Shown here in pieces: positions 302-30,090 of a stretch of DNA of 30,090 nt. The position numbers and the translations under genes were made by a program. Source of the stretch: a virus; IMG/VR virus record IMGVR_UViG_3300042456_000517, positions 1 to 30,090 of that record; one strand, 5' to 3'. The notes under the pieces are model-generated. The model did no database searches, had not been told where the DNA came from, and was given only the letters and a program-made list of their open reading frames with translations. The stretch's first letter is position 1. Each line of letters begins with the position of its first letter.

Positions 302-329
302 ATTTTTGTTTAGTTCTTTAAAATTTTAT

Positions 330-715
330 GGGGATGTGTAGATTCGACATAGATAAATATCTATTGTTAGGCACGTAGAGGATAATAGTTGGCCTCTTTA
401 AAAGTTCTATTGAAAATTAACTGCTGAAGATAACGTAGTTAGCTATGACTTCTCTTATGATGACGTTGTAGCCCTTGCAGCCTAAGTTGTTGCACATTCA
501 ATACAATGAAGTCTGATAGTTGTATTGGGTGTAAATTATTGGACTGGGCCAAATATTTGATTTGCGTAAATGGCTGAGAAAATGGTAAATCTTAAGGGTA
601 ATATTTTTAGATATTTTTAATTATTACTTCCCAACAATTTAAAATATATAAACGTGTAGTCTGGCAGTAATAATTTTTTATGGACGCGGGGTGCGACTCC
701 CCGCCATCTCCACCA
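330..715 (+). ncRNA. ssrA: Phage-encoded tmRNA
   Basis: tmRNA rescues stalled ribosomes by acting as an alanyl-tRNA and then as a short mRNA that tags the unfinished protein for proteolysis. The tRNA-like ends pair: GGGGATG (330-336) with CATCTCC (705-711), including the G3-T70 alanine identity wobble, followed by ACCA. The conserved GATTCGAC lies just inside the 5' end and GGACGCGGGG with a T-arm inside the 3' end. A tag frame ending in ALAA-stop lies at 423-485, followed by a pseudoknot-like stem (CAATACAA 499-506 with TTGTATTG 520-527). Total 386 nt is normal for the one-piece form. The T loop reads TGCGACT, with G where T55 is expected, on a stem one pair longer than in E. coli. It shares the promoter at 9 with the tRNAs. 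No integrase is nearby, so a host ssrA used as an attachment site is less likely than a phage gene. Confidence 0.93.
423..485 (+). other. tmRNA tag reading frame (20 residues)
   Basis: Reading from a GCT resume codon at 423 gives AEDNVVSYDF followed by SYDDVVALAA and a TAA stop at 483-485. The C-terminal ALAA matches the signal read by ClpXP-type proteases in the well-known ANDENYALAA tag of E. coli. At 20 residues it is about twice that tag's length. The resume codon is inferred by comparison with other tmRNAs; the frame and stop are directly visible. Confidence 0.8.
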
Positions 716-1722: not shown

Positions 1723-3585
1723 TTATTTTGATAAAGAATCGATTGAATTTTTTACTTTGGGATCTATTACTAAATCTTGTGTATTTTTATTAACTATCGC
1801 TTTTAAGAATTTCTTTAAAACACCCATTAACATTTTATCCTCGTTTGAAGATATTTTACTTTTTGAAAGTTCTTTTAATAACATTACCATTGAGGGTAAA
1901 CTTTTCTTTATATCTTCAATTATAGATTTTGATTGTGCTAATAAATTAGAAGAAGGTGTGATTCCAGTTTCCACCGCCTTGCCGAGACTCTCGGCCGACT
2001 CTTGTTCATTTATTTTACCAATTAAATCTTTGACTTGAGAAATTGAAGGAGTGTTATTCAATTCCCATAAAAATCGTTTGATAAATTTTTTCTTTAATTT
2101 TTTTGCTATAGGTTTATTTTCTACTGAAATAAAATCAAGTAGTTTTAATGATTCCAATGAATTTTTTAAAGTGGAGAAATATCTACTTACGCCTTTATTT
2201 ATTTGTAAATCTTTGCCCAATCCTTTTTTAAGTTCGGATTGAAGTCTTATTAATTGTGAATAATAAGCACCAAATTTATTTATTTCATCCGGTGTCAATT
2301 TATCTTCATCTATACCTGATGTGCCTGTTGTGCCTGCAGTACCTGTTGTGCCTGCAGTACCTGTTGTGCCTGCAGTACCTGTTGTGCCAGTTGTGCCTGC
2401 AGTACCTGTTGTGCCAGTTGTGCCAGTTGTGCCTGCAGTACCTGTTGTGCCAGTTGTGCCAGTTGTGCCTGCAGTACCTGTTGTGCCAGTTGTGCCAGTT
2501 GTGCCTGCAGTGCCAGTTGTGCCAGTTGTGCCAGTTGTGCCTGCAGTGCCAGTTGTGCCTGGATCACTTGGCAACGTTACATTTGAAAAAGCATCTTCTA
2601 TAGATTTGCCAGCTTTTAATACAATATAAGCAGCATATAATTTATTGAAAATCGGACCTATGCCATTTTTATGTAAAATGATATAAAGTTTTTTAAGTTC
2701 ATATGGTTCAATACCCAATGATGGAGCAACTGTCTTAATTATTTTTTCGAAACTACTTATAAATTCATTCTTTTTAGTATTATCGTCCCAATAAGATAAT
2801 TCATCTATTTCTTTTATAACAGTAGATTTAATAGGTAATTCTATATTTTTAGGTATTATTTTACTATTATCTGTTATATTATTTAAAACATTCTTGGCAT
2901 CCACCGGCAAATTATCATATAAATTCTCAAAATCTTGTTTTATTTTACTTACATCTATTTGTTTTAATGTAATTCCACGTCCAATATCATCACCCCAATT
3001 TAAATTAGCAATTTTTGTAGTTTGATATCCAGATCTACCTGTTGTGCCTGATGTGCCTGATGTGCCTGTTGTGCCTGTGGTACCTGTTGTGCCCGATGTG
3101 CCTGTTGTGCCTGTGGTGCCTGTTGTGCCTGTTGTACCTTTTGTGCCTGTGGTACCTGTTGTGCCTGCAGTACCTGTGGTGCCTGCAGTACCTGTTGTGC
3201 CTGTGGTACCTGTTGTGCCTGTGGTACCTGTTGTGCCTGCAGTACCTGTGGTGCCTGCAGTACCTGTGGTGCCTGCAGTACTTCTTACCGATTTAATCTT
3301 ATTTGATAAATCTGTTAACTGTGTTGCATATGGAATTATTTCGGGGGTAATTAAATATTTACTTGGGCCATTTGTGAGATCGTTAATAAGATTTTCTTTG
3401 GTGGATCCTATTTCATCTGCAATACTGGTTAAAAGAGCGTCTACATTTTTATCCAAAACTTCAAGATCATTAGCTGACAATTCTTTTTTTCCGCCTAAGC
3501 CCACTGATCCTTTTAGTTTATCTAAAAAACCAGCTTCGTTTAAAAATTCTTTATACAACTCTTCGGTGTAATTTATTTCGTTCAT
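1723..3585 (-). CDS. Large protein with two Gly-Thr-Thr triplet repeat blocks
   Basis: A 620-residue protein built as helix, repeat, helix, repeat, helix. Residues 1-100 are helical with [20 protein letters not shown] near the start. A block of Gly-Thr-Thr/Ala/Ser triplets runs from about 101 to 183, then a folded linker of about 160 residues, a second triplet block at about 344-422, and a helical C-terminal third. The triplets have Gly every third residue like collagen but contain no proline at all. There is no signal peptide or clear membrane helix. It follows the 803-residue gene with 1 nt between them, so both are one operon and perhaps one complex. By comparison with collagen-like phage proteins a virion role is plausible but unproven. 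Confidence 0.75.
2318..2554 (-). repeat. 9-bp tandem repeat, block 2 (GTT/GTA codons)
   Basis: On the plus strand the units are CCTGTTGTG, CCTGCAGTA and CCAGTTGTG. They build a higher-order 36-bp unit (one GCAGTA 9-mer, one CCTGTTGTG, two CCAGTTGTG) repeated about three times between roughly 2396 and 2503. Near identity of units means recent slippage or recombination. It encodes the second triplet block of the 620-residue protein and creates long false reading frames on both strands. Confidence 0.9.
3036..3281 (-). repeat. 9-bp tandem repeat, block 1 (GTT/GTS codons)
   Basis: The units are close relatives of block 2 (CCTGTTGTG, CCTGTGGTA, CCTGCAGTA, CCTGATGTG) but use a different codon mix and include GTS and one GTK triplet. 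The two blocks therefore evolve partly separately within the same gene. Confidence 0.9.
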
Positions 3586-6644: not shown

Positions 6645-6998
6645 ATGATGATAGATAAATACTCTTCATTAACTTTGCCATCTGATTATAGTCAGATGGA
6701 GGGTTTGATTAAAGTCAATAAAATTAAGTTGATGGAACAAATTGTTTCGTCTATATGTTACGCGGTGAAGAACAATTTGAATGCGATAGAGGTCTTTAAT
6801 TTTAAAGATTCTGATTTCATAGTAGTATTAGTCCGTGATTCATTTGAAAGTAATTTAAATAGTATTTATAATTATTATATCTCATCTGAGACATATGAAC
6901 ATTGCGGACGTGTTTTAAATATTAAACAACAACTAAACCAAAAAAATGAACAAGAAAAAAGACACAAGTCCAAAGGTTCACCAAAACGAAAAAATTAA
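6645..6998 (+). CDS. Hypothetical protein coupled to phoH
   Basis: A 117-residue protein starting at the tandem ATG ATG just after the UUCG terminator, with TTATATACTTATAT directly before it. The body alternates helices (LMEQIVSSICYAVKNN) and strands (SDFIVVLVRDSF), suggesting a small alpha/beta fold. The last 25 residues are basic and Gln-rich (KRHKSKGSPKRKN). Its 3' end overlaps the phoH start by 53 nt, so the two are translated together. Not recognised; a PhoH partner is a reasonable guess. Confidence 0.65.
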   Translation: MMIDKYSSLTLPSDYSQMEGLIKVNKIKLMEQIVSSICYAVKNNLNAIEVFNFKDSDFIVVLVRDSFESNLNSIYNYYISSETYEHCGRVLNIKQQLNQKNEQEKRHKSKGSPKRKN

Positions 6999-7656
6999 AG
7001 AATCAGTTAGAATAGATGAACGACAACTTACATCTAAACAGATTGAATTATTAAATTTATTACAAAATAAAACAACCAAACTAGTCTTTATTTCTGGGCC
7101 AGCTGGAACTGCCAAAACATATACGTCAATATTAGCAGGTTTAACCTTATTGAATCATAAAAGGGTGAGTGAAATTATATATGTTAGAAGTATAGTTGAA
7201 AGCAGCGATAGTAAATTAGGATTTTTGCCTGGTGAAATGGATGAAAAAATGAGTCCATATATCCAACCATTGATAGACAAATTAGAAGAATTGTTGCCAA
7301 AACACGATATTGATAAATTGAAAAAAGAGGAACGTATTCACGGATTCCCAATCAATTTTTTACGTGGTTTAAGTTGGAATGCTAAATGTATCGTAGCAGA
7401 TGAAGCTCAGAATATGAGTAAAAAAGAACTAATAACATTGATCACACGTGTGGGTGAATTCAGTAAGTTATTTATCTGTGGCGATCCAGATCAAAGTGAT
7501 ATCAACGGTAAAAGTGGATTTGTGCCAATGATGAATGTTTTCGACGATGAAGAAAGTAGAAATAATGGAATTTATGTATTCAAATTTGATGAAGACGACA
7601 TTGTTCGGAGTGGTTTAGTAAAATTTATATTAAAAAAACTAAAAAACGTTAGTTGA
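6946..7656 (+). CDS. phoH: PhoH-like ATPase
   Basis: PhoH proteins are P-loop ATPases related to the SF1 helicase core and are common auxiliary genes of large lytic phages; their role in infection is not settled. Here the 236 residues contain Walker A GPAGTAKT (51-58), a YVRSIVES segment, Walker B with the box IVADEAQN (about 148-155) and the sensor-like GDPDQSD (about 179-185). Length is normal for a phage PhoH core. A basic 20-residue N-terminal tail overlaps the upstream gene, so the exact start is uncertain, but no other ATG is available before Walker A. The next gene begins 20 nt downstream, which suggests read-through into the fibre genes. Confidence 0.93.
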   Translation: MNKKKDTSPKVHQNEKIKESVRIDERQLTSKQIELLNLLQNKTTKLVFISGPAGTAKTYTSILAGLTLLNHKRVSEIIYVRSIVESSDSKLGFLPGEMDEKMSPYIQPLIDKLEELLPKHDIDKLKKEERIHGFPINFLRGLSWNAKCIVADEAQNMSKKELITLITRVGEFSKLFICGDPDQSDINGKSGFVPMMNVFDDEESRNNGIYVFKFDEDDIVRSGLVKFILKKLKNVS

Positions 7657-25927: not shown

Positions 25928-28900
25928 ATGCCTTACGACTATTTGACAATAAACGATAATGATTTGAATAAGGGTATTACAAGTGCATCTTATTTCAATG
26001 CCAATTTGCAGTCTTTGTACGAACAACAAGTTGTAAGTAATGATGTATTTTATGGAGAATCCGACGACGACTTGTTTGAATTTACTCTTTATAATAATAA
26101 TCAACAACTTGTAAGTTTTAACAGAGTAATTCCATCCGTTACATATTCCATATTACAAGGAAGTTATAGAGATATAAATAATGAGTTGAGATCGTATCAA
26201 TTCGCAAATCCATTTACAAATATTGTATCTCACAAAAATGATATTTTATTACACCCACAATTTGATTTAAATGCTAGTGGAGTTGGTCCAGGTTTGTATT
26301 ACTTGTTGTATAATCCAGTTAGAAATATAGCCGGCAATCCGACAAATAAATTGGTTATAAAAGAGATATCTCCAAGTAGAACTGAAATACGGTTATCTTA
26401 TGCATTTGACACAACTAAAAATGAATCATCTAGGTTAGATGCGGTTAAGATAAGATCATTTGCTGATAAAAAATATTTGTTATTGAGAATATATCAAGAT
26501 TTAATTGATATTATTAAAAACAATCCAATCGAACAAGACTTTCTGTTAAATAAAAATAAGTATAATTATACAGATATTTGTTTGAAGTTAGGTCTAAAAA
26601 GTGAAGCTGAATTGCAGGAATTTATAACATCAACATACGTTGGATATAATTCTGTAATTAAATTAAATAGTGATACTGATACTACGATTTTACAGACAAG
26701 TAAATTTTCAGGTGTACAGGAACAAATTAACAATTTTATATACACATATAACAATGTAGAATTTACCAATCAAGAAATATTAGAGTCTTTCAGAATCATC
26801 ACATTAAAAGTATCACAAGATAGAGTATTACAAAAAAGTTCTATAAATGATATCGATTTACAAAATATATTGGGATTATTTGAACAAACGATTTATACCG
26901 ATTGGATATTGCCGAATGTAACTAATTTATTAGAAAATTATAGAACAAAATATTATGGTTATTATAAGAACGCATTGAATTTTGACAATGGAAATTTAAT
27001 AAAAATTCTAGATCATACAAATTATTTAAATTCAATAGATGATACTTTTAACATACAAGTAAAATTAGATGCTCCATTACCTTTACAATATAATATAAAA
27101 TCGACATGTTGGATATCAAACATATCAATTGCTCCAATTTATTTTAAAGTTAACTTATTTACTTCGAAGATATCAAGAAAAGTATTTTTAAACGATATAA
27201 ATTTTGATGTTCAAGTTAATACGTCGCATCCATCTACAGAAAGATATCAAAGTAATGACGCGTTTACTCTGGACAAAGCAACAGTAAGATTAAAAGAAAA
27301 GTATAATGATTTGTATATAGATTATACAGATTTCAACAATTTTATTAATTATTCATCAGCTGAATTACGTACTAAAATTGCTAAGAATAAAATCAAAGAT
27401 TATAATCAACTTGAGTCCGTTAAGAAATCGACTATTAATTCCGCAACAAATACAAGTGCGACAATTTCATCTTCTTATAGTCAGTTGGTTAATCAGAAGA
27501 CATCTCAACAAATCACATTGCTGGATACATTTGATGAATACGAATCCTATTTGTTTTTTAATTCATCCAGTATAGACAACAAAATCGATGAGGCTATTAC
27601 ATATGATTCGGATAACTATAATAGTTTGGTATATCAACTTCCTGAATATGTAAAGGATGACTCCGATTCAGCGGATTACATAAAATTCACCGCAATGACC
27701 GGACATTTTTTTGATAATATATTAGTCTTTATCAAGAAGTTTCCTAAAACATATCCTATTTCTAACAATGATTCAAGTTACTATCCAAAGAATTATATAG
27801 ATGAATTATTGAACAGTTTTAATTGGAACGTTGACATTGACAAATTTTCTCAAAGTGATTTAAATCAATTATATTTAAATAATCAAGAAATTTCAGGTTA
27901 CAACTCCGCTTCTTATTTCGATTATACAAAATCAATTTTAAATCGATTTGCAAATAACATTTCATCTGTATATAAATCCAAGGGTACTATCAATTCATTT
28001 GAAATGATACGTACTATGTTTGGCATTCCATCTGGATTAATATCTACCAGAGAGTATGGAAGTGCTGACGCTTTTTCCAATCGTGATAATTACTTCGTAT
28101 ACGATGATATTATTTATATGACAGATTTCAAGGAAAATAATTTCTTGAATTTTCAACATACTAGTAGTGATTTTATTTATACCACTAGTAGCTACTACGC
28201 ATCTGGATCCAATATTAATACATTCACCAGTAGCACCGAATACACATCAAAATTTAATGGTATATCTACAATTGAATTTTCTTTTAGATTTAAATCGACT
28301 AATTATAACTTCGACGACAAGATACAATTGATGTCGAAATATAGAAATAAAAAGTCTGATTGGAATTTATTTATAAAAAAATCAAAGCAAGTTAACAGTG
28401 GTCAATTAGTATTTGAAATACATCCATATGAATTGGGTAACACCACGTCTAGTTTGATATTAAATGAAATACCATTATTAAACGGCGGCATTTTCACTGC
28501 TATGTTAAAGCGTGAGCCTGTTCTTGGAGATTTCGATAAGTTGCGGGTTCGTTCAATTAAAACCACTAATGAAGATACTCCTTTTATTATAGAAGACGAC
28601 GGTGATTTTGTGATAGAAGACGATGGCGATTATGTCACATTAGCATCTCAAAAAACAATATTAACAGCTTCTTATTTTATTAATTCGACAAATGAATTTA
28701 TTCCATACATATACAGTCTATCCATTAATCAATATGATGGAAGCGTTAAGAATTTCTCATCAACAAAGCGTAAACTTATAAATTATAATACAAACAAGAA
28801 GTTTTCATCGGGTAGTTATTATATAGGTAATTATTCGTCTTCTGTTTCTTTTATAGGAAATTTGGATAAAATCAAAATTTTAAAAGAACCACTTAATAAT

Positions 28901-30090
28901 GAATATTTCGATGAACATTCTTATAATTTAGATTCGATATCAATACCAAATAAAGAAAATGTTTATTCTAATTTGTTTTATTTATGGAGTTTCGACACGC
29001 CTGTAGATTTGTATTCATCTACATCGATTAGTACAACCGTACATAATCAAAATATTTATTATAATACGCAATTCTTTGCTTATAATTTTGGACAAACAGA
29101 AAAGTATTATAGCTATCCAACTTGTTCGAATGTAATGATTACTCAGTTCCCATATCAATTTGATAAAATCGATCTTAAACAAACTATAAACACCAATAAC
29201 TTTGGACCAAATTTCAAAATTAATGGTAAAATAAACAAAATAACCGAAACAGCTTTGTCTAATTTAACGCCGTATGATTATTCGACGAGAATTCAAGACA
29301 GTTTAGGTGACGATTCTATCTTATCAGGATTTTTTATAAGTCCATATAACTATTTAAATCAAAAAATAGAGAATTTTATAGGTTTGGATGGTATAGCCGA
29401 TATTATAGGTGAACCTCAAAATTTAAACAAACAAAATTATGATGGATTGACTAAATTACAACGTGAATTCGGCGAAATAAATGAAAAATATATATACCCA
29501 CAAGAATTTTATAGTACATATAAATTCTACATTGATTTTTCTATATTTGATGTTGTAAAAAATTTAAAACCGTCTAGATCTAATTTATTGACAGGCCTTG
29601 TATTAGAACCAAGCTTGTTTGAACGTAAAAAGTTTAACTACAGAGATGTGGAATTTTTAACAAATAACGAATTTGACATATACTTTAATAACAAGACAAC
29701 ATTTACATCTTCTTTATTAAATACGGTTGATATTGCAAACTTCGCTATAGTAACTAGTTCTAACGTTAATAATATTACCAGAGATGAAAATACTTATAAT
29801 TACTCTCGTCTAGAAATTAAAGACACAATCGACGACCGTGATTTTATTTATGCAAAGTATGGAAAATATGTATATATTGATTCAAATGGATATAATGTAC
29901 GAGACACAGTTAATGTAGGCAAAAAAGATTATTATCAATCTGTTAATAATGATGGATTTTTAGTAACATTTACTTCTTCATTTGACGAAGTTCAAGTTAT
30001 TGGTTCTGGGTCGGGATATTCTGTAGGTTCATCTGGCATCTCAGGTACATCCGGCATCTCAGGTACGTCCGGTACATCCGGTACATCCGG
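25928..30090 (+). CDS. Giant baseplate/tail structural protein (3' end outside window)
   Basis: An uninterrupted frame of 1387 codons from ATG 25928 (1 nt after the previous stop) to the window end, with no stop, so the gene is partial. The N-terminal 450 residues are mixed alpha/beta (MPYDYLTINDNDLNKGITSA; LRIYQDLIDIIKNNPIEQDF). Residues 540-760 include KSKGTINSFEMIRTMFGIPS. Residues about 770-1000 resemble a LamG/concanavalin-type sandwich (STIEFSFRFKSTNYNFDDKI through GNYSSSVSFIGNLDKIKILK). A conserved-looking SRSNLLTGLVLEPSLFERKK follows near 1217. The last residues are a Gly-Thr-Ser triplet run. By order after gp25 and gp6 it takes the place of T4 gp7, the longest wedge subunit, but no gp7 motif was recognised. 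Confidence 0.75.
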   Translation, partial: MPYDYLTINDNDLNKGITSASYFNANLQSLYEQQVVSNDVFYGESDDDLFEFTLYNNNQQLVSFNRVIPSVTYSILQGSYRDINNELRSYQFANPFTNIVSHKNDILLHPQFDLNASGVGPGLYYLLYNPVRNIAGNPTNKLVIKEISPSRTEIRLSYAFDTTKNESSRLDAVKIRSFADKKYLLLRIYQDLIDIIKNNPIEQDFLLNKNKYNYTDICLKLGLKSEAELQEFITSTYVGYNSVIKLNSDTDTTILQTSKFSGVQEQINNFIYTYNNVEFTNQEILESFRIITLKVSQDRVLQKSSINDIDLQNILGLFEQTIYTDWILPNVTNLLENYRTKYYGYYKNALNFDNGNLIKILDHTNYLNSIDDTFNIQVKLDAPLPLQYNIKSTCWISNISIAPIYFKVNLFTSKISRKVFLNDINFDVQVNTSHPSTERYQSNDAFTLDKATVRLKEKYNDLYIDYTDFNNFINYSSAELRTKIAKNKIKDYNQLESVKKSTINSATNTSATISSSYSQLVNQKTSQQITLLDTFDEYESYLFFNSSSIDNKIDEAITYDSDNYNSLVYQLPEYVKDDSDSADYIKFTAMTGHFFDNILVFIKKFPKTYPISNNDSSYYPKNYIDELLNSFNWNVDIDKFSQSDLNQLYLNNQEISGYNSASYFDYTKSILNRFANNISSVYKSKGTINSFEMIRTMFGIPSGLISTREYGSADAFSNRDNYFVYDDIIYMTDFKENNFLNFQHTSSDFIYTTSSYYASGSNINTFTSSTEYTSKFNGISTIEFSFRFKSTNYNFDDKIQLMSKYRNKKSDWNLFIKKSKQVNSGQLVFEIHPYELGNTTSSLILNEIPLLNGGIFTAMLKREPVLGDFDKLRVRSIKTTNEDTPFIIEDDGDFVIEDDGDYVTLASQKTILTASYFINSTNEFIPYIYSLSINQYDGSVKNFSSTKRKLINYNTNKKFSSGSYYIGNYSSSVSFIGNLDKIKILKEPLNNEYFDEHSYNLDSISIPNKENVYSNLFYLWSFDTPVDLYSSTSISTTVHNQNIYYNTQFFAYNFGQTEKYYSYPTCSNVMITQFPYQFDKIDLKQTINTNNFGPNFKINGKINKITETALSNLTPYDYSTRIQDSLGDDSILSGFFISPYNYLNQKIENFIGLDGIADIIGEPQNLNKQNYDGLTKLQREFGEINEKYIYPQEFYSTYKFYIDFSIFDVVKNLKPSRSNLLTGLVLEPSLFERKKFNYRDVEFLTNNEFDIYFNNKTTFTSSLLNTVDIANFAIVTSSNVNNITRDENTYNYSRLEIKDTIDDRDFIYAKYGKYVYIDSNGYNVRDTVNVGKKDYYQSVNNDGFLVTFTSSFDEVQVIGSGSGYSVGSSGISGTSGISGTSGTSGTS
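30035..30090 (+). repeat. Gly-Thr-Ser coding repeat, continues past the window
   Basis: Units of 9 bp (GGTACATCC) and 18 bp (GGCATCTCAGGTACATCC at 30035 and, with one change, at 30053) encode SGISGTSGISGTSGTSG. The array is still running at the last base, so its length is unknown. Confidence 0.85.

Follow-up and report, generated by a model that had tools for sequence, protein, structure and literature searches.

tmRNA genes on phage genomes have been described in mycobacteriophages, Bacillus phage G and phage DS6A (PMC4131195), and a tmRNA is present in 402 of 18,146 phage genomes (PMC9004378). The original prediction for the locus discussed here called phage tmRNAs known but uncommon; the first part holds, and with this count the rarity is weaker than stated. 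In huge phages, a tmRNA occurs together with SmpB (PMC7162821). The tmRNA of Methylophage Melnitz resembles the one discussed here as an aquatic phage tmRNA that is thought to act on the host machinery, but it is a permuted two-piece molecule with a glutamine riboswitch, as far as the available text of that paper goes (PMC9004378). In addition, theta ribozymes have been found behind phage tRNAs, with an HDV-like fold at the 3' end of tRNAs without an encoded CCA (PMC10879173).

The stretch of DNA that was analysed (the window) comprises all 30,090 bases of a virus record, which is probably a fragment. It carries a one-piece tmRNA gene that shares with the standard one-piece tmRNA (RF00023) the order of the elements, an acceptor stem with a G3.U70 pair, a tag frame ending ALAA, and CCA. 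It differs from the standard molecule in a six-pair T-stem, a TGC T-loop, a D-loop without GG and a tag of 20 residues. With the systems of PMC4131195 it has in common that the tmRNA gene lies on a phage genome, but those are other phages, and the available part of that paper does not mention an exchanged tRNA-like domain. This exchange, together with the form of the domain called type B below, is what is new here; a literature search at the level of titles and the beginnings of abstracts, with few subscription papers covered, gave no description of a tmRNA tRNA-like domain exchange. Neither the exchange nor the ribozyme-like element described below was part of the original prediction. The preferred reading, with a probability of roughly 0.7, is that the window encodes a phage tmRNA that uses the host SmpB, that the tRNA-like domain of this tmRNA exists as two exchangeable alleles, and that type B came from mainstream tmRNA ends and was spread by recombination.

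The tmRNA gene and its tag

The covariance model RF00023 spans positions 330 to 715 of the window entirely on the plus strand (model positions 1 to 374), with 102.4 bits against a gathering score of 47 and an E value of 3.1e-39 (Rfam), so that the tmRNA predicted at this place is present at full length. The acceptor stem (330-336 with 705-711) has 7/7 pairs, including the G3.U70 pair of alanine identity, and CCA is encoded at 713-715; the tRNA-like ends and the G3-T70 alanine wobble had been predicted correctly. The same goes for the neighbouring tRNA-Ala (UGC, 46-117, no encoded CCA) and tRNA-Gly (GCC, 226-301, CCA encoded), both on the plus strand and both found by ARAGORN and Rfam. Folding of the tmRNA strand is more stable than that of 100 shuffled sequences (z -3.49). 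Rfam detects no riboswitch family in the window.

With default settings, ARAGORN reported only the two tRNAs in the window and missed the tmRNA. With relaxed thresholds on a 550-base piece, a tmRNA with the tag AEDNVVSYDFSYDDVVALAA was listed among several overlapping spurious genes. Across the gene sets described below, the default run found 39 of 42 A-like genes, 0/21 type B genes and 0/2 mixed genes, and batch runs from -ps90 to -ps70 had the same outcome. ARAGORN is named in the phage papers PMC7162821 and PMC9004378, in the parts available. Since it finds none of the type B genes, phage surveys that rely on it probably overlook genes of this kind.

The tag reading frame (423-485, plus strand) reads AEDNVVSYDFSYDDVVALAA and a stop, as had been predicted for a 20-residue tag ending ALAA. 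Such an end is a protease signal. Tags of one family were present in 49/49 genes that were found without using the tag, and 15 genes found through the tag were excluded as evidence for this family. Across all 64 genes, there are 22 distinct tag peptides, 58 genes have a tag of 20 residues, and the window's own tag occurs in 24. The tags end in ALAA (43), AVAA (12), AIAA (8) or AVVA (1), and one related tmRNA (L118) has a tag that starts with Thr instead of Ala (TEDNVISYDFVSRDAQVAIAA). Among the 22 distinct 20-codon sequences of the 64-gene set, 9, 6 and 18 of 20 columns vary at codon positions 1, 2 and 3, respectively. This pattern is expected for a translated frame, and the tag frame with its hydrophobic end appears to be under selection. 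The suggestion that the tag length is unusual stands in so far as 20 residues exceed the most frequent length of 10 (PMC11915505, available part), but within this family it is the rule. A tblastn search with the tag in named phages gave no match, a query of 20 residues being a weak one.

Phage relatives and genomic context

A PhoH-like protein encoded at 6946-7656 on the plus strand (phrog_170, E 4.4e-65; Pfam PhoH, E 1.1e-51) was used as the marker for relatives and led to 71 viral loci. The window also encodes Hsp20 and baseplate genes. A tmRNA above the cut-off was found in 48 of the 71 PhoH-related records (35/50 and 13/21), always on the PhoH strand and 1.0-8.8 kb upstream of that gene, and it is present in 21/21 loci with 10 kb of sequence upstream of PhoH. 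The other 23 records end 0-6.7 kb upstream of PhoH, and therefore their tmRNA may lie beyond the contig; two of them (L160 and L058) hold a cut gene or its tag. A degenerate tag pattern matched 63 stretches in viral_contigs, from which 15 further complete genes were obtained, all of type A. The set of 64 genes thus consists of 49 found independently of the tag (48 relatives and the window) and these 15.

All records of the group are metagenome assemblies, and they are incomplete. The tmRNA family belongs to a single group of tailed phages, whose baseplate genes are of the T4 type. When a baseplate protein is compared, the nearest named phage is Microcystis phage Mel-JY01 (40.8%), followed by Flavobacterium phage immuto (35.9%). 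A search of 26 records gave no psbA-type gene and no CCA-adding enzyme (0/26 each), and an RNA ligase in one (1/26). In the 484-kb uncultured phage LR756508, a baseplate protein is related (38.7% identity) and a tmRNA lies about 12 kb upstream of its gene, but this tmRNA is unlike the window's in sequence. It is a divergent molecule of 447 bases (92434-92880), with a candidate tag frame of about 32 residues by eye; ARAGORN proposes another.

The window tmRNA is a phage gene, since a search of 84,980 species genomes with a near-identical version of the tag pattern, which misses some tags of the family, yielded three matches, none of them in a tmRNA. An identical tmRNA in a bacterial chromosome would have indicated host DNA, and within the tags that this pattern covers none was found. 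Host DNA at the window edge was also considered and rejected, because the window is a whole virus record, the gene recurs in its relatives at 1.0-8.8 kb upstream from PhoH, and no bacterial tmRNA with the tag was found by this pattern. By blastn of the whole gene against 50,697 phage records, one match was obtained, covering only the last 38 bases (10% of the query).

A captured relic without function would be a very improbable explanation of the gene. tmRNA genes are often integration sites of genomic islands (PMC11915505), and prophage exchange has been suggested for the ssrA gene of phage Melnitz (PMC9004378), both according to the available parts of these papers, so that a capture could be imagined. 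However, the differences between the tags lean to third codon positions, the pairing of the acceptor and T-stem is intact in 61/61 complete unmixed genes, and the gene occurs in every record with enough upstream sequence. The window tmRNA is a real, conserved phage gene of a known kind, and it is very probably functional.

Directly before the mature 5' end lies a leader, AGTTCTTTAAAATTTTAT (312-329, plus strand), that is identical in 19 of 49 records. Its end, AAATTTTAT, is present in 21/21 type B and 7/26 type A genes of the PhoH set. The proposed host-type promoter shared by the tmRNA and the two tRNAs found no support: a 10-of-12 site is present at 9-37, but positions 1-1700 hold 5 such sites against a mean of 7.0 in shuffles. 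Likewise, the idea that the tRNA-Ala keeps substrates of AlaRS available is unsupported, because the gene directly upstream of the tmRNA is not constant among the relatives. The suggested tuning of the tag to a particular host protease or adaptor is a further idea that is unsupported.

Elsewhere in the window, the predicted protein of an open reading frame at 1723-3585 (minus strand) has long GTT/GTA and GTS repeats, as has that at 25928-30088 (plus strand). The DNA at 2307-2559, within the first of these frames, matches a 735-kb uncultured phage record.

Two types of tRNA-like domain

The tRNA-like domain of the 64 genes comes in two types: 41 genes are of type A, 21 are of type B (the window's type; 14 distinct sequences) and two are mixed. 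Type A has a GGGC acceptor, a CUGG or CAGG D-loop, a five-pair T-stem and a UUC loop. Type B has a GGGGAUG acceptor, a GUAG D-loop, a six-pair T-stem and a UGC loop. In the window, comparison of the two types places the 5' half of the domain at 330-368 (acceptor strand GGGGATG, D-loop without GG, upper P2 strand) and the 3' half at 664-715 (P2 strand, T-arm, acceptor strand, CCA), both on the plus strand. The T-arm, GCGGGG-TGCGACT-CCCCGC (686-704, plus strand), has TGC for TTC and can be read as a six-pair stem or as five pairs with a nine-base loop.

These features are constant within each type. The D-loop is C[TA]GG in 40/40 complete type A genes and GTAG in 21/21 type B genes, five T-stem pairs with TTC are present in 40/40 type A genes, and the acceptor has 7/7 pairs in all 40 complete type A and all 21 type B genes. 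The D-loop GG goes with the T-loop TTC in all complete type A genes, and AG goes with TGC in all type B genes; this joint change from GG/UUC to AG/UGC looks like a preserved tertiary contact. With the T-stem read as six pairs, the acceptor/T stack of type B has 13 pairs. A stack of this length is known from bacterial selenocysteine tRNA. Set against the canonical arrangement given by the RF00023 structure and consensus (seven-pair acceptor, five-pair T-stem, UUC loop), type B deviates in the T-arm, and type B genes score below complete type A genes with this model. The type B T-arm is a deviation inside the tmRNA family, as the RF00023 match is still far above the cut-off.

When 7 distinct close type A sequences are compared with 14 distinct type B sequences, identity is 0.23-0.50 at RNA positions 1-39, 0.94-1.00 at 40-69, 0.76-1.00 in the core and 0.38-0.70 at 336-385, with sharp breaks near positions 39/40 and 335. 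Among the type B genes themselves, the ends (0.90-1.00) are more alike than parts of the core, where identity goes down to 0.74. The two exchanged ends are about 290 bases apart in the gene, form one domain in the RNA and change together. The exact type B T-arm pattern occurs in 23 stretches in viral_contigs, all from this phage group. With one mismatch allowed, it was found in 0/395 and 0/398 genomes of two bacterial phyla, in sets drawn around an Algoriphagus genome (G072, L140) and a Marinicella genome (G073, L141).

The altered D-loop/T-loop pair and the extra T-stem pair, present in 21/21 type B genes, could also be taken to mean that type B is a decoy. An altered elbow and a longer acceptor/T stack would then weaken delivery to the ribosome and keep SmpB binding, and the RNA would titrate the host SmpB and block the host tmRNA. 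A precedent is phage DS6A, which has little beyond the tRNA-like domain; a molecule of similar make-up is a strong inhibitor of tmRNA and may act by titrating SmpB (PMC4131195, available part). A decoy would, however, need neither the full core nor the tag frame of a conserved family, both of which type B retains, and this explanation is considered unlikely.

History of the exchange

The gene, the conservation of its tag, the two alleles, the switching between them and the likeness of the type B ends to mainstream ends can all be read from the sequences themselves. On the core tree, the allele needs 4-5 changes, 2 of them forced. With a midpoint root, type B falls inside a single, well supported clade of 43 rows, 20 of which are type A, and all other branches are type A, so type B looks derived. 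On the PhoH tree (49 rows), 7-8 changes are needed, 5-6 of them forced by well supported branches. Shuffled labels need about 14-15, so the A/B label is also clustered on this tree. One set of five identical PhoH genes combines four type A genes with one type B gene, and another set combines one type B gene with the two mixed ones.

The flanks of the genes add to this picture. In two type B records (L096 and L021), each flank is 96-99% identical to that of some type A phage, with a different phage for each flank. These are the only 2 of 21 type B genes with both flanks at least 95% identical to type A; the remaining 19 fall short on at least one side, and the flanks of the window are no more than 0.62 and 0.74 identical. 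The cores of two further type B genes (L029 and L097) are 98-99% like type A cores, and for these two an assembly origin is possible.

The two mixed genes (L024:1410-1796 and L122:849-1235) have a type A 5' end and a type B 3' end, with 5/7 acceptor pairs, and may be assembly chimeras or the result of a fresh crossover. The energies of the joined ends average -38.5 (type B), -36.9 (type A) and -32.9 (mixed). The binding part of the mixed ends, -8.8, lies inside the type A range of -22.0 to -7.0, which gives no clean separation.

It is conceivable that the whole A/B mosaic is an assembly artefact in which short-read assemblers joined the cores and ends of coexisting phages, as cores are up to 99% alike and the two mixed genes have a mispaired acceptor stem. 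Random joining should yield mixed ends more often than in 2 genes against 21 with matched type B ends, though, and there are core clades that are entirely type B (14 rows in the window's clade and 4 rows in the clade of L098). Moreover, each of the 20 type B contigs other than the window has its own metagenome number. An artefact of this extent is judged quite improbable, and exchange of the domain by recombination is preferred.

Origin of the type B ends

With its last 52 bases, the tmRNA gene matches places in 98 phage records at E values up to 1 (blastn). The best of these is Acinetobacter phage BUCT628 (92.1% over 38 bases, E 2e-4); phages of Stenotrophomonas and Streptomyces come next, with E values of 0.09 or higher, and several of these places are annotated as tmRNA. 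The match in BUCT628 falls in a permuted tmRNA (L220:772-986; RF04321 123.9 bits, RF01850 94.3 bits). This permuted tmRNA, above the Rfam cut-offs, is missing from the annotation of the record.

Compared with BUCT628, type B genes have 18-21 matches in the first 24 bases and 35 in the last 38 columns, whereas 40 complete type A genes have 13-18 and 25-31, respectively. Three differences separate the 3' end of type B from that of BUCT628: an extra G and an extra C of the T-stem, and the change of UUC to UGC. The tmRNAs of BUCT628 and of the Stenotrophomonas and Streptomyces phages thus have the 3' ends that are the nearest named matches to that of the window, but they are without the extra T-stem pair, and the remaining gene is unlike the window's by blastn.

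Gammaproteobacterial tmRNAs with GGGGATG...CATCTCC ends also exist; six, selected on the basis of their 3' end, were compared. In the class of the Marinicella genome, 42 of 274 genomes match a canonical 3' end with up to two mismatches, two of them exactly, and six of these bacterial loci that were tested were all confirmed as tmRNA (6/6). The 5' end alone gave nothing by blastn against phages, the 3' end matched plasmids in seven Acinetobacter records at E 1, and the other places in the compared loci are short, weak matches. The type B ends are like those of BUCT628 and of gammaproteobacterial tmRNAs, and therefore type B looks like mainstream, proteobacterial-type ends grafted on a phage core and later altered.

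A ribozyme-like element

Directly behind the tRNA-Ala, at 118-193 on the plus strand, lies a probable HDV-like (theta) ribozyme, for which self-cleavage is predicted. The element has P1 (GTTGACA/TGTCAAT), P2 (ATATCA/TGATAT), P3 (ACC/GGT) and CAAA shortly before the P2 3' strand. It was recognized with a purpose-written descriptor based on general rules of the HDV fold, and shows the double pseudoknot starting from the tRNA 3' end and the C before the P2 3' strand. The descriptor is positive at 4 of 251 tRNA 3' ends against 8 of 20,000 random positions. When scanned everywhere, it matches 64 places in 4.03 million strand-bases and 2 in 155,186 shuffled ones; such matches are mostly chance, and therefore the position is the evidence.

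The descriptor is also positive at 3 of 65 tmRNAs (L115, L117 and L146, the last being LR756508), all without an encoded CCA, with two more offsets allowed than in the control. In these three, the HDV-like fold lies directly after the tmRNA 3' end, which suggests that a ribozyme makes this end. Rfam ribozyme models gave none at the gathering score in the window and none at E up to 10 in the three records. The arrangement at the tRNA-Ala is the same as in the theta ribozymes described behind phage tRNAs, an HDV-like fold at a tRNA 3' end without an encoded CCA. It differs at L115, L117 and LR756508 in that the element follows a tmRNA, a word that does not occur in the available main text of PMC10879173. 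No ribozyme behind a tmRNA was described in the literature searched, which was covered by titles and the beginnings of abstracts and included few subscription papers.

Function and implications of the domain exchange

The 26 of 72 records that were searched, which are incomplete, gave no SmpB, with a control that was positive in 10 of 14 genomes; therefore, the host SmpB is the likely partner of the phage tmRNA. This sets the group apart from the huge phages with tmRNA and SmpB (PMC7162821, available part), whose tmRNA is also unlike in sequence. In the preferred reading, host enzymes would charge the tmRNA with alanine and mature the RNA, and together with host SmpB and host EF-Tu it would rescue stalled ribosomes during infection. 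This rescue would add the 20-residue tag ending ALAA. Allele B would have arisen when ends of a mainstream proteobacterial-type tmRNA took the place, as a unit, of the acceptor stem, D-loop, T-arm and upper P2. The elbow and T-stem would have been altered at the new ends, and the allele would then have spread between phages via recombination.

The likely reason for the exchange would be that the new domain fits SmpB, EF-Tu or processing enzymes in a different host, or that it evades a factor recognizing the old one. Among host matching, escape and a decoy, the mainstream type of the B ends favours host matching.

tmRNA is usually treated as one unit. A wider interpretation, put forward tentatively, is that the tRNA-like domain is a module that is swapped independently of the core. 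The window's domain would then be a bacterial-type graft that has since acquired a 13-pair acceptor/T stack and a rewired elbow, giving a new form of tmRNA for using or avoiding different host factors, and the 3' end of the tmRNA of some relatives would be freed by a phage ribozyme. In these phages, natural pairs of almost identical RNAs occur whose main difference is the tRNA-like domain, and they are a ready comparison. With it, one could ask which parts of the domain are required by SmpB, EF-Tu and AlaRS, and why a phage comes to change the domain.
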